DNA of 35,136 bases from Rhodopseudomonas palustris. GTDB lineage: Bacteria; Pseudomonadota; Alphaproteobacteria; Rhizobiales; Xanthobacteraceae. Both the position numbers and the translations under genes were made by a program. The notes beneath the pieces are model-generated. The model saw only the letters and a list, made by a program, of their open reading frames with translations, was not told where the DNA came from and ran no database searches. This document shows positions 166-34,300 of this stretch, one piece after another. Numbering within the stretch: the stretch's first letter is position 1; each line of letters begins with the position of its first letter. The DNA lies in the NCBI GenBank assembly GCA_016215605.1, contig JACRJB010000042.1:1-35136 (forward strand), read 5' to 3'.

Positions 166-197
166 GATGGATGCGCGGGTCAAGCCCGCGCATGACG
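166..197. repeat. Dispersed palindromic repeat, family D, single arm
   Basis: This is one arm of the family whose full copies lie at 22540-22611 and, inside dnaE2, at 31831-31918. The arm has the pattern GGATGCGCGGGTCAAGCCCG then CGCATGACGG and is itself internally palindromic (GCGCGGG / CCCGCGC). It sits between the left-edge promoter and the pobA 3' end. Confidence 0.7.
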
Positions 198-22515: not shown

Positions 22516-22539
22516 CAGGATCGATCCACGACAAAGGCC

Positions 22540-22611
22540 GTCATGCGCGGGCTTGACCCGCGCATCCATCCTTCGAAGAAGATGGATCGCCGGATCAAGT
22601 CCGGCGATGAC
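22540..22611. repeat. Dispersed palindromic repeat, family D, full copy
   Basis: Arms GTCATGCGCGGGCTTGACCC and GGATCAAGTCCGGCGATGAC face each other around CCATCCTTCGAAGAAGATGG. The element lies between the convergent cyclase and glycerate kinase genes and could act as a two-way transcript end. Two copies of GTATGTGTAG follow at 22616-22640. Confidence 0.75.
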
Positions 22612-29079: not shown

Positions 29080-29865
29080 ATGACCAGCGCGCGCCTCGAC
29101 ACGCTTGCGCGCCTGCAGGGCGCCATCGACCGGCTCGAAAGCGGGACGGCCGAGACGCTGCGCCGCGTGCCGCTCGGCCATGCCGAGGCCGACTCCGTGC
29201 TGCACGGCGGGCTGGTGCAGGGGGCGCTGCATGAAGTGTTTTGCGACGGCCATCACAGCGCGGCGGCGACCGGCTTCGCCGCCGGCGTGGCGCGGCTGCT
29301 GGCCGATCAGCGCTACCTGCTGTGGATCCGCCAGGATTTTTCCGCGCGCGAGAACGGCGAGCTGGCGATGGAAGGTTTTGCCGAGCTCGGGCTCGATCCG
29401 CGCCGCCTGGTGATGGTGTGCGCCCACGACGCCGACAGCGCGCTGCGCGCCGCCGCCGATGCGCTCGGCTGTAACGGCCTCGGCGCGGTGATCACCGAGC
29501 TGTGGGGCGAGACCCGCAGCTTCGATCAGGTCGCGTCGCGAAAACTGACGCTGGCGGCGCAGGACAGCGGCGTCACCGCGTTGATGCTGCGCATCGCCGC
29601 GGCGCCGCAGGCCTCGACCGCGGAGACGCGCTGGATGGTGCGCGCGGCGCATTCGCCGCCGAGCGAGGACTGGGGCGCGCCGGTGCTCGAGACGTCGCTC
29701 ATCCGCAATCGTCACGGCCAGACCGGCCGTTGGATCATGGAATGGAATTGTGATGCGTGCCAGTTCCGTGAACCGCAGACGCATTCTCGGCCTGTGGCTG
29801 CCGAGGTTGCCGACCGATCGGTTCGAACGTCAGGCATCAGCGCCGAACGCCTGCTCGCCGGCTGA
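29080..29865 (+). CDS. imuA: ImuA, RecA-like mutasome protein
   Basis: First gene of the SOS mutagenesis cassette; 261 residues. It resembles RecA-type folds but lacks a Walker A loop: the equivalent segment reads EVFCDGHHSAAATGFAAGVA (about 52-71), with no GKT/GKS. In this family ImuA supports ImuB and DnaE2 in damage-induced error-prone synthesis. The ATG at 29080 follows AAGGAG at eight bases. Its 3' end overlaps imuB by more than 100 bases in another frame, so the C-terminal 38 residues are read from DNA that also encodes the ImuB start. Confidence 0.92.
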   Translation: MTSARLDTLARLQGAIDRLESGTAETLRRVPLGHAEADSVLHGGLVQGALHEVFCDGHHSAAATGFAAGVARLLADQRYLLWIRQDFSARENGELAMEGFAELGLDPRRLVMVCAHDADSALRAAADALGCNGLGAVITELWGETRSFDQVASRKLTLAAQDSGVTALMLRIAAAPQASTAETRWMVRAAHSPPSEDWGAPVLETSLIRNRHGQTGRWIMEWNCDACQFREPQTHSRPVAAEVADRSVRTSGISAERLLAG

Positions 29866-31351
29866 GGCGCCGCGCCCGCCACGCGTGGTCGCCGCCAAGC
29901 GCGACAATGCGCTGGTGGTGGTCGCCTGCGACGCGCGCGCCAGCCGGGGCGGCGTGCTGCCCGGCATGCCGCTCGCCACCGTGCGGGCGATGCATCCGGC
30001 GGTCGACGTCATCGACCACGATCCGCACGCCGACAGCGTGCTGCTGAATGCGATCGCCGATTGGTGCGACCGCTTCACCCCGCTGGTGGCGCTCGACGGC
30101 GCCGACGGGTTGTTGCTCGATATCACCGGCTGCGCGCATCTGTTCGGCGACGAGGCGCGCCTACTCGATACGCTGATCGCCGCGCTGACACGCCAGGGTT
30201 TCGAGGTGAGCGCGGCGATCGCCGGCACAGCGGTGGCGGCGCGAGCACTCACCCGCGGTGCGCCGCGCAGCATCGTCGCGCCGGGCGAGGAGGCGAGGGC
30301 GGTGGCGCCGCTGCACGTGGCGGCGCTCGGCGTCGATGAGGCGATCGTGCGCGGCCTGCGCCGCGCCGGGCTCAAGACCATCGGCGAGGTGCTGGCGCGG
30401 CAATCGGCCGAACTCGCCGCGCGGTTCGGCGAAGGCTTCGTCGCGGTGCTGCGCCAGGCCACCGGCGACGACGATGCGCCGATCTCGCCGCGGCGGCCGG
30501 CACCGGACTATTTGATCGACAAGCGCTTCCCCGAGCCGATCGCCACCCTTGAGGTGATCCTGCCGACGCTGCTGGGCCTGGCCAAGCTGCTGATCGCCGC
30601 GATGGAGCGGAGCGGCAAGGGCGCACGGCAACTCGTCGCCAGCTTCTTCCGCAGCGACGGCGCGGTGCGCCGCATCAGCGTCGAAACCGGGCAGCCGGTG
30701 ACGCGCGTCGACGTGGTGCAGCGGCTGTTCGCCGAGAAGCTGGGTGCGCTCGCCGATCCGCTCGATCCCGGCTTCGGCTACGATCTGATCCGGCTCGCCG
30801 CCAGCGTCAGCGTGCCCACCAGCGAGGCGCAGCGCGGCTTCGACACCAATGCGCATCAGGCCGAGGACGTCGCCTTGCTGGCCGATACGCTGGCGGCTCG
30901 GCTCGGTGCGCGGCGCGTCGTGCGCTATCTGCCGCAGGACACGCATATTCCCGAGCGCGTCGCGTTGGCCGTGCCGGTGCAGCATTGTCCGCCGGACGCC
31001 GGCGATGCGCCGTGGCCGGCGCGCGCCGACATCCCGCCGCTGCGGCCGTTGCGATTGCTGCAACAGCCCGAGCCGATCGAGGTGCTGGCCGGCGTGCCGG
31101 ACGGCCCGCCGGCGCAGTTCGTCTGGCGCCGCGTCACCCACCGCGTCGCCCGCGCCGAAGGCCCGGAACGCATCGCGGCCGAATGGTGGCGCGCCGCCGA
31201 GCCCGGCCTGACCCGCGATTACTTCCGCATCGAGGACGAGTCCGGCGCGCGGTTCTGGTTGTACCGCGACGGGCTGTACAACGTCGAGGTGACGCCGCAG
31301 CCCGACGGCAGCGACCCGCTGCGTTGGTACATGCATGGGCTGTTCGCTTAG
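29753..31351 (+). CDS. imuB: ImuB, catalytically inactive Y-family polymerase-like protein
   Basis: Adaptor of the mutasome that in Caulobacter and mycobacteria links DnaE2 to the sliding clamp. From ATG 29753 it has 532 residues; a GTG three bases earlier is possible, but GGA six bases before the ATG favours the latter. Homology to Y-family polymerases is clear (for example CDARASRGGVLPGMPLATVRA near 60-80 and LDGADGLLLDITGCAHLFGD near 113-132). The N-terminal acidic residues of active enzymes are replaced (LGLWLPRLPTDRFER), so it should not polymerise. It overlaps imuA at its start and lies 9 bases before dnaE2, one coupled operon. Confidence 0.92.
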   Translation: MRASSVNRRRILGLWLPRLPTDRFERQASAPNACSPAEAPRPPRVVAAKRDNALVVVACDARASRGGVLPGMPLATVRAMHPAVDVIDHDPHADSVLLNAIADWCDRFTPLVALDGADGLLLDITGCAHLFGDEARLLDTLIAALTRQGFEVSAAIAGTAVAARALTRGAPRSIVAPGEEARAVAPLHVAALGVDEAIVRGLRRAGLKTIGEVLARQSAELAARFGEGFVAVLRQATGDDDAPISPRRPAPDYLIDKRFPEPIATLEVILPTLLGLAKLLIAAMERSGKGARQLVASFFRSDGAVRRISVETGQPVTRVDVVQRLFAEKLGALADPLDPGFGYDLIRLAASVSVPTSEAQRGFDTNAHQAEDVALLADTLAARLGARRVVRYLPQDTHIPERVALAVPVQHCPPDAGDAPWPARADIPPLRPLRLLQQPEPIEVLAGVPDGPPAQFVWRRVTHRVARAEGPERIAAEWWRAAEPGLTRDYFRIEDESGARFWLYRDGLYNVEVTPQPDGSDPLRWYMHGLFA

Positions 31352-31360
31352 GAGCGTAGG

Positions 31361-34300
31361 ATGAGCATCCCGCGCTACGCCGAGATCGGCGTCACCACCA
31401 ATTTCTCGTTTCTCGAAGGCGGCTCGCATCCGCAGGACTATGTGCGCCAGGCCGGCGCCCTCGGCCTCGATGCGATCGGCATCGCCGACCGCAATACGCT
31501 GGCCGGCGTGGTCCGGGCCTATGTCGAACTCGACAACAAGGAGCTGATCCACAAGCCCAAGCTGCTGATCGGCACGCGGCTGTGCTTTGTCGACGGCACG
31601 CCGGATCTGCTCGCCTATCCGACCGACCGCGCCGCCTACGGCCGCCTCTGCCGCCTGCTCAGCACCGGCAAGCTACGCGCCGAGAAGGGCGAGTGTCATC
31701 TGACGTTGGCGGATTTGGAAGCGTTCATCGACGAAGCGCCGACGATCATCGATCGGCCTTCGGCGACTATCCACCAGCTTTCTACTTCCACCCTTCAGCC
31801 TTCCGCCTCCATCCACCACCTCCCCACGCCGTCATGGCCGGGCTTGACCCGGGCATCCACGCCCACAAGCAAGGCCGTGCTGGTGTCCGTGGATGCCCGG
31901 GTCAAGCCCGGGCATGACGAGGGGAAACGTAAGGACAGCAATTCGCAAATCCTATTAGTCCTGATGCCGTCCTATCGCTTCCAGACCAAGACGATCGCAA
32001 CCGCACTGGCCCGTCTCACCGCCCTCAACGCCGGCGCCGTCTGGCTCGGCCTCGCGCCCTATTATCGCGGTGACGACAAGCGCCGTCTCGATCGGTTGCG
32101 CGGCGTCGCCGCGGCAGCGCGCGTGCCATGTATCGCCACCAACGACGTGCTGTATCACCATCCGGCGCGGCGGGCGTTGCAGGACGTGCTGACTTGCGTG
32201 CGCGAGAAGACCACGATCGACAAGATCGGGCGCCGGCTCGAAGCCAATGCCGAGCGTCATCTCAAGCCCGCGGCCGAGATGGAGCGGCTGTTCCGCGCCG
32301 ATCCCGACGCCATCGCCGAGACGCTGCGCTTCGCGTCAAAGATCGAGTTTTCACTCGATCAGCTCAAGTATCAATATCCCGACGAGCCGGTGCCGCCCGG
32401 CAAGACGGCGCAGCGTCATCTCGAGGACCTGACCTGGGCCGGCGCACATAAATGCTTCCCGAAGGGGATTGCGCCGCGCACCAGGAAGGTGCTGCACAAG
32501 GAGCTGCGGCTGATCCGCAAGCTACGCTACGCGCATTATTTCCTCACCGTGCACGACATCGTGCAGTTCGCGCGGTCGCAGAACATCCTGTGCCAGGGCC
32601 GCGGCTCGGCGGCGAACTCGGCGGTGTGCTACGTGCTCGGCGTCACCGCGGTGAATCCGACCGAGGTCGACCTGTTGTTCGAGCGCTTCATCTCCAAGGA
32701 GCGGCTGGAGCCGCCGGACATCGACGTCGATTTCGAGCACATCCGGCGCGAGGAGGTGATGCAATATGTCTATCGCCGCTACGGCCGCCACCGCGCCGCG
32801 ATCGTCGCCACCGTCATTCACTATCGGCCGCGCTCGGCGATCCGCGACGTCGGCAAGGCGCTCGGGCTGACCGAGGACGTCACCGCGGCGCTCGCCGATA
32901 CGGTGTGGGGCAGCTGGGGCAAGGGCCTCAACGAGATGCAGGTCAAGCAGGCCGGGCTCGATCCGGCCAATCCGATGATCGCGCTGGCGGTCGAACTCGC
33001 CACCGAACTGATCGAGTTTCCGCGGCATCTGTCACAGCATGTCGGCGGCTACGTGCTGACGCAGGATCGGCTCGACAGCTACGTGCCGGTCGGCAACGCC
33101 GCGATGGTGGACCGTACCTTCATCGAATGGGACAAGGACGATATCGACGCGTTGAAGATGATGAAGGTCGACGTGCTGGCGCTCGGCATGCTGACCTGCA
33201 TCCGCAAATGCTTCGACCTGATCGACGCGCACAAGGCCGAGCGCTGGACGCTCGCCAGCCTGCCGCGCGAGGTGCCCGAAGTCTACGACATGCTGTGCCG
33301 CGGCGAGTCGCTCGGCGTGTTCCAGGTTGAAAGCCGCGCGCAGATGAACATGCTGCCGCGGCTGAAGCCGCGACGGTTCTACGATCTCGTCATCGAGGTC
33401 GCGATCGTGCGCCCCGGCCCGATCCAGGGCGACATGGTGCATCCCTATCTGCGCCGTCGCAACAGGCAGGAGCGGGTCGCCTATCCGTCGCCGTCGCCGC
33501 AACACGGCGACAAGGACGAACTCCGCAAGGTGCTGCACAAGACGCTCGGCGTGCCGCTGTTTCAGGAGCAGGCGATGCGCATCGCCATCGAGGCGGCGAA
33601 GTTCACGCCAGAGCAGGCCAACGGCCTGCGCCGCGCCATGGCGACGTTTCGCAATGTCGGCACCATCGGCAAGTTTGAATCCATGATGGTCGAGAACATG
33701 GTGGCGCGCGGCTATGAGCGCGCCTTCGCGCAAAACTGCTTCGAGCAGATCAAGGGCTTCGGCTCCTACGGCTTTCCCGAAAGCCACGCCGCGAGCTTCG
33801 CGCAGCTGGTCTATGCGTCGTCATGGCTCAAGCACGTCCATCCCGACGCGTTCTGCTGCGCGCTGCTCAACTCACAGCCGATGGGCTTCTACGCGCCGGC
33901 GCAGATCGTCGGCGATGCGCGCACCAACAAGGTCGAGGTGCGGCCGGTCGACGTCTCGTTCAGCGCGGGCCAGTGCACGCTGGAGGAGCGTTGCGGCGCA
34001 TATCACGCGGTGCGGCTCGGCTTCCGCATGATCGACGGTTTTCGCTGGGCCGATCCGGACGAGGAGCGGGTGCGGCGCGAGGCCGGCGAGCCGCCGAGCG
34101 ACGATTGGGCGGCGCGCATCGTCGCGGCGCGGGCGAGGGGGGCTTTCACCTCGCTGGAGCAGTTCGCCCGCATCACCGCGCTGCCGAAGCGCGCGCTGAT
34201 CCTGCTCGCCGATGCCGACGCCTTCCGCTCGCTCGGGCTCGATCGCCGCGCCGCGCTGTGGGCAGTGCGACGCTTGCCCGACGACGTGCCGTTGCCGCTG

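Follow-up and report, generated by a model that had tools for sequence, protein, structure and literature searches.

REP-like palindromes within the reading frame of DnaE2, an error-prone DNA polymerase, in Rhodopseudomonas and related genera

Palindromic repeats within coding sequences

The closest described relatives of the element considered here are the CGTC REPs, among which the CGTC-3 family is found in Rhodopseudomonas palustris and Bradyrhizobium, and a 9-bp stem starting with AT together with a 5-nt loop is common to families 3 and 4 (Di Nocera et al., 2013, PMC3733652). CGTC elements apparently have no dedicated transposase. REPs have already been reported inside DnaE2 genes, and palindromes are also listed in DNA repair genes of other species; genes of the same category harbor their REPs at different sites, except for recB of two Xanthomonas (PMC3733652). 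A coding REP in DnaE2 is of a known kind according to this source, the main text of which (figure and supplement aside) names no species for the DnaE2 REPs. Among the texts retrieved by a literature search for DnaE2 with palindromes or REPs, it is the only one found to treat REPs in DnaE2.

The Rickettsia palindromes RPE-4 and RPE-6 have been placed in the same CGTC superfamily (PMC3733652), so that the parallel with Rickettsia proteins drawn in the initial annotation of the present locus is apt. Whether one ancient insertion or repeated hits on hot spots account for such coding palindromes is a question left open for Rickettsia in the text of PMC3767692. The ten genera reviewed below offer replicate cases of unrelated palindromes in one gene.

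The insertion in the PHP domain and its inheritance

The window, i.e., the whole stretch of 35,136 nt of R. palustris DNA that was analysed, contains an imu cassette in which imuB and a probable imuA are followed by dnaE2 (Table 1). The DnaE2 protein scores 1569.5 bits against the NCBIfam profile NF004225 (error-prone DNA polymerase; cut-off 939) and exhibits the Pfam domains PHP, DNA_pol3_alpha, DNA_pol3_finger, HHH_6, and OB. As noted at the outset, the frame is uninterrupted over its 1193 codons, insert included. The inserted 71 codons lie in the PHP domain, between a helix (residues 116-123) and a strand (residues 197-202), and encode a Pro/Ser/His-rich part followed by the 90-bp palindrome. 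Its start is slightly ahead of the position 31750 given in the initial annotation. A near-perfect inverted repeat, an imperfect direct repeat before it and a composition unlike that of the surrounding gene had also been described, and all three are real: the outer 32 nt pair at 31/32 positions, the two direct-repeat units agree at 16 of 20 by reading, and the GC3 of the insert is 0.76 against 0.87 for the remaining gene, a value as low being found in only 0.9% of 213-nt blocks. The Pro/Ser/His-rich stretch (31757-31829; units like PSASIHQ) differs in length among species, including L012 and L150.

Table 1. Features of the window related to the dnaE2 insertion
Feature	Position	Strand	Basis
Related REP half	168..197	+	93% over 30 nt
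Related REP half	22539..22568	-	93% over 30 nt
Probable imuA	29080..29865	+	NCBIfam ImuA_translesion, 48 bits, under its cut-off of 150
imuB, same cassette as dnaE2	29750..31351	+	Pfam IMS, 39.5 bits (gathering 23.2)
dnaE2, error-prone DNA polymerase, 1193 aa	31361..34942	+	Open frame, NCBIfam and Pfam profiles
In-frame insertion, 71 codons, residues 124-194	31730..31942	+	Alignment against insert-free G005
First unit of imperfect Pro/Ser/His-rich direct repeat	31757..31776	+	Sequence reading
Second unit of imperfect Pro/Ser/His-rich direct repeat	31799..31818	+	16/20 identical to first
90-bp palindrome, inverted dimer of CGTC-type REPs	31830..31919	+	Arms, genome copies, fold
Left REP: CGTC tag, 9-bp stem (1 mismatch), CTTGA loop, CCA tail	31830..31861	+	Sequence reading against PMC3733652
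Right REP, inverted	31888..31919	-	Sequence reading

The two arms of the palindrome (31830-31874 and 31875-31919, 45 nt each) are 89% complementary. An unpaired terminal CGTC tag is present at both outer ends, so that the element reads as an inverted dimer with its tags outward. The left REP stem, ATGGCCGGG-CTTGA-CCCGGGCAT, is 9 bp long, begins with AT, encloses a 5-nt loop and forms eight of its nine pairs, whereas all nine are formed in its counterpart in L016; a CCA tail directly follows the stem. The GTAG tag of RAYT-mobilised REPs is absent. From these sequence features, the dnaE2 palindrome is identified as a CGTC-type REP dimer, its placement in CGTC family 3 relying on the listing for R. 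palustris in PMC3733652. The 201-nt segment has 80 matches in its own genome (both strands and itself counted), and a subset of all copies comprises 27 distinct dimers, the dnaE2 copy included. For the latter alone, the frame is open and the third positions are coding-like to the left and right of the copy; judged by eye, several others in long open frames are in the wrong frame or 5' of the start codon. Genome copies and open frame together bear out the proposal that a palindrome of a dispersed family sits within a coding frame. Regarding the relatives initially noticed elsewhere in the window, two were found, each matching over a 30-nt half (Table 1).

At the identical site, the insertion is found in 13 of 16 Rhodopseudomonas genomes, of which 11 are intact by scan, one (G007) lies near a contig end and one (G011) is split over two contigs. 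Two further genomes (G009 and G014) display shortened remnants and one (G005) has no insert. In a tree of the gene part 3' of the insert, G005 clusters with the two remnant bearers with a support of 100/99 and, since it is nested in the genus beside them, its empty site represents a loss. The aligned relatives outside the genus, called for in the initial annotation, lack an insert at position 123; a second loop of variable length occurs about 10 residues downstream of the insertion site in other genera. As the aligned genera have no homologous sequence at this place, a loop native to alphaproteobacteria is rejected, and so is a recent private insertion, given the 13 carriers, the remnants and the nested loss. 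By this sequence evidence, the REP dimer appears to have entered the PHP domain before the sampled Rhodopseudomonas species diverged.

All 11 palindromes measured in the genus are exactly 90 nt long and in one phase. By eye, they fall into four types according to spacer and arms. These types need four changes on the gene tree, where the minimum for four states is three, and the excess change concerns type II, the type of two genomes (G010 and G002) from separate supported clades. The type II palindromes (L011 and L015) are identical at 89 of 90 positions, against 83.5% over the 3'-terminal 2700 nt of the genes; at that level the chance of 90/90 identity is about 1e-7, the observed 89 being slightly less extreme. 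The sister genes L010 and L011 are 92.9% alike with palindromes at 73%, and the sisters L013 and L015 are 95.5% alike with palindromes at 70%. In windows of 60 nt, which gave usable identities for four of six pairs (without L009/L012 and L012/L016), L010 and L011 share 62-72% at the palindrome and 80-98% elsewhere, and L013 and L015 share 60-63% in the palindrome and 65-83% in the stretch before. These comparisons show that, within Rhodopseudomonas, the palindrome residing at this site has been exchanged for another. Among the further copies that were scored, the closest reach 92% in G002 and 90% in G010; with own-genome copies no closer than this, allelic exchange is likelier than copying from within the genome. 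Such an exchange would most simply result from alleles of related species recombining locally, without a change of length or frame.

Recurrence in other genera and in control proteins

In a blind scan, inverted repeats with a score of at least 17 were found in 30/110 DnaE2 ORFs against 0/110 of their synonymous shuffles (a single shuffle for each gene). Six genomes (G018, G020, G021, G028, G031, and G034) contribute two of these ORFs each, none of them with a repeat. The family sample consists of 105 genes taken from 104 of 122 genomes with a match. Repeats are present in 24 of the 105, or internally in 23 once L214, whose repeat lies ahead of the aligned start, is left out. Outside Rhodopseudomonas, long in-frame palindromes are harbored by 18 of 99 DnaE2 genes, with 26 repeats at reference positions 132-138 (seven), 556 (four), 806-810 (five), 839-840 (nine), and 857 (one), i.e., in the PHP domain, at the junction of palm and fingers and close to the HhH domain. 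The palindromes form six sequence clusters and extend over nine further genera, ten with Rhodopseudomonas. When position 123 is counted, site, cluster and genus combine in 21 different ways; some of the repeats at site 840 may share common descent. About 20 of the 99 genes were picked because their match was split at the PHP loop, and the PHP-site count is therefore inflated.

Among 24 loci fetched for such split matches, 20 from other genera were usable, and the loop DNA of seven of these 20 folds with z < -2.5; the insert alignment of the split-match loci left out L137 and L146, which were not alignable, and has an empty row for L012. For the seven PHP-site inserts, to which the own-genome check was restricted, near-full-length further copies are found in G075, G091, G113, G127, and G136, and copies of parts only in G071 and G085, all copy numbers being at least the figures obtained since 40 candidates were scored per genome. 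One gene of G127, L241, harbors three copies of one palindrome (aa 154-187, 615-648, and 983-1016), the second and third being 98% and 90% like the first. No palindrome was detected in a further set of 19 DnaE2 genes (0/19). Of 80 named DnaE2 loci, 11 have one, including those of Bradyrhizobium cajani, B. huanghuaihaiense, and B. hereditatis; three of the 11 (L269, L270, and L299) correspond to genomes G006, G015, and G163, and one of the two repeats of L311 extends to a contig end. By alignment, by these scans and by the predicted model described below, DnaE2 carries REP-like in-frame palindromes repeatedly, at few loops, in this bacterial family. This wider recurrence is more notable than the insert itself and could not be seen from the window alone. 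At reference position 64, 46 aligned sequences display at least 12 extra residues (up to 150), with no scanned palindrome there.

In an AlphaFold2 model of DnaE2 (37 sequences in the alignment), the closest solved structures of which are DnaE-type polymerases, the mean pLDDT is 79. Insert residues 128-192 are below 50, as is partly expected because the alignment had few or no other rows with the insert, while the other parts of the PHP domain are mostly at 79-96 (blocks of ten). The palindrome sites, which correspond to residues 123-124, 203-209, 627, 876-880, 909-910, and 927, are predicted to lie within loops or turns or at their edges. The PHP active sites of DnaE2 are described as inactivated, with few exceptions (PMC12926913), which fits a tolerance of inserts in this domain.

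Control proteins were scanned in matched frames in 30 genomes chosen for a repeat-bearing DnaE2 (in G115, the repeat lies only before the aligned start), some of the control genes being partial. None of the paralogue DnaE1, CarB, UvrA, or AddA has a palindrome (0/30 each). In CobN, which we assume to be a probably dispensable control, a palindrome is present in 3/25 genes; the 25 represent 19 genomes and include six second copies. All three are from Rhodopseudomonas and concern one region of the cobaltochelatase, with an in-frame palindrome different from that of DnaE2: L469 (G000, the genome of the window; aa ~798-850), L471, and L474. By Fisher's test, DnaE2 differs from each of the four empty controls with p = 0.0017 and from CobN with p = 0.21, values to be read in the light of shared ancestry and selected genomes; the pooled p = 3e-7 is too small, as the genes are phylogenetically non-independent. 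Palindromes in DnaE2 thus exceed those in its paralogue DnaE1 and in CarB, UvrA, and AddA, whereas CobN differs less (p = 0.21). As the 3/25 of CobN is not significantly below DnaE2, the contrast may in part be due to dispensability. A general enrichment in DNA repair genes is unsupported, UvrA and AddA being empty (0/30 each).

Palindromes were also found in ImuB ORFs, at 7/105, 0/19, and 3/79 in three sets, against 1/105 in shuffles. They are located either at residues up to 225 or at aa 430-490 (L189, L192, L214, L220, L226, L237, and L245; L272, L293, and L306). ImuB was scanned as stop-to-stop frames, and some of these repeats may precede the true start codon.

Explanations and comparison with known systems

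It is likely that disordered loops of a dispensable mutator polymerase, being tolerant, have captured REPs again and again. The REP dimer would have entered the PHP domain before the species split and stayed in the open frame, where the palindrome would be translated as a loop predicted to be disordered. Insertions would land widely and persist only where the peptide can protrude from the fold of this dispensable polymerase of the SOS type; the hot spots would accordingly be survivors and not targeted sites. This reading requires no change in polymerase activity. Neutral tolerance alone, however, fails to explain the empty AddA, UvrA, and CarB.

Alternatively, palindrome loops could be kept because they alter the docking of DnaE2 with ImuB and hence induced mutagenesis, an adaptive tuning of the mutasome that we consider unlikely. 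The main DnaE2-ImuB contacts are predicted in the PHP and (HhH)2 regions (PMC12926913); hot spots 123-138 lie in the former, and hot spots 840-857, i.e., residues 910-927, are beside Pfam HHH_6 (915-964). The presence of palindromes in the ImuB ORFs of two of the three sets would also fit, and a role in mutators was speculated upon by Di Nocera et al. (PMC3733652). However, an interface position is indicated for the PHP and HhH sites and not for 556 and 806-810, the peptides come from unrelated clusters, one species has lost the insert, and the uncertain start codons weaken the ImuB counts. We know of no phenotype of DnaE2 palindromes. A bolder extension, rated as quite unlikely, is that DnaE2 and ImuB form a preferred, evolving landing platform, in which unrelated mobile palindromes would repeatedly enter the two mutasome-docking domains and be renewed by allele swaps, thereby diversifying the mutator machine and the rate of evolution.

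A function at the level of nucleic acid, in which a hairpin formed by dnaE2 mRNA or DNA would serve as a brake or as a site of processing, the peptide being incidental, seems distinctly improbable. The RNA of 31811-31940 (130 nt) does fold into a very stable hairpin (-89.4 kcal/mol, z = -9.5, 0/200 shuffles equally stable), and repeats with a score of at least 17 persist in 11 Rhodopseudomonas genes despite their differing types. Yet the frame is open in the two species with decayed palindromes and in the one without, the arms of L010 and L011 are poorly matched (scores of 21 and 17; the palindrome of the window scores 30), and the element starts about 470 nt inside the gene.

That one ancient insertion diverged into the different palindromes, or that this is simply a native variable loop, is very improbable. 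While such loops vary in length also without palindromes, and similar sites of Rickettsia orthologues are occupied by RPEs of different groups (PMC3767692), the DnaE2 palindromes form six unlinked clusters at several sites, the inserts tested match copies in their own genomes, and the scan shows no internal palindrome in 81 of the 99 genes from other genera. An assembly or annotation artefact hardly deserves credit: the draft assemblies of G007 (L149) and G011 (L150) break at or near the palindrome, but the insert is present in the single-contig genomes G001, G002, G003, G010, and G012, as are palindromes at other sites in G063, G094, G157, and G172.

Capture by tolerant loops remains the reading that we prefer. 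The dnaE2 element resembles the RAYT-mobilised GTAG REPs (PMC3733652) as a small dispersed palindrome occurring in dimers, with a different tag. Its likeness to the CGTC-3 REPs comprises the terminal CGTC, the 9-bp stem, the 5-nt loop, the CCA tail, the inverted dimers and the intragenic location (PMC3733652). Unlike the text of that paper, the present analysis brings together recurrent sites in DnaE2, palindromes of unrelated families at a single site, a control with the paralogue and swaps in place. In the texts searched on palindromes of DnaE2, Rickettsia, and Bradyrhizobium, recurrent loops, unrelated families, a paralogue control and turnover in place were not found described. Since DnaE2 is error-prone, its orthologues constitute a natural set of loop variants for asking if a mutator enzyme is altered by repeat DNA within its gene.

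The Rickettsia RPE-4, RPE-6, and RPE-7 are likewise in-frame palindromes that are common to orthologues, with different groups at like sites and one case in DNA polymerase III alpha (PMC3767692). As in Rickettsia, the DnaE2 insertion is in frame and leaves the ORF intact. RPEs lie in solvent-exposed regions (PMC3767692), and the DnaE2 insert is a predicted loop with a pLDDT below 50. In Rickettsia, many genes of one genus are concerned, and a common origin was favored with hot spots not excluded (PMC3767692), whereas here one gene is concerned in many genera; together with the unrelated clusters and the insert-free relatives, this favors hot spots.
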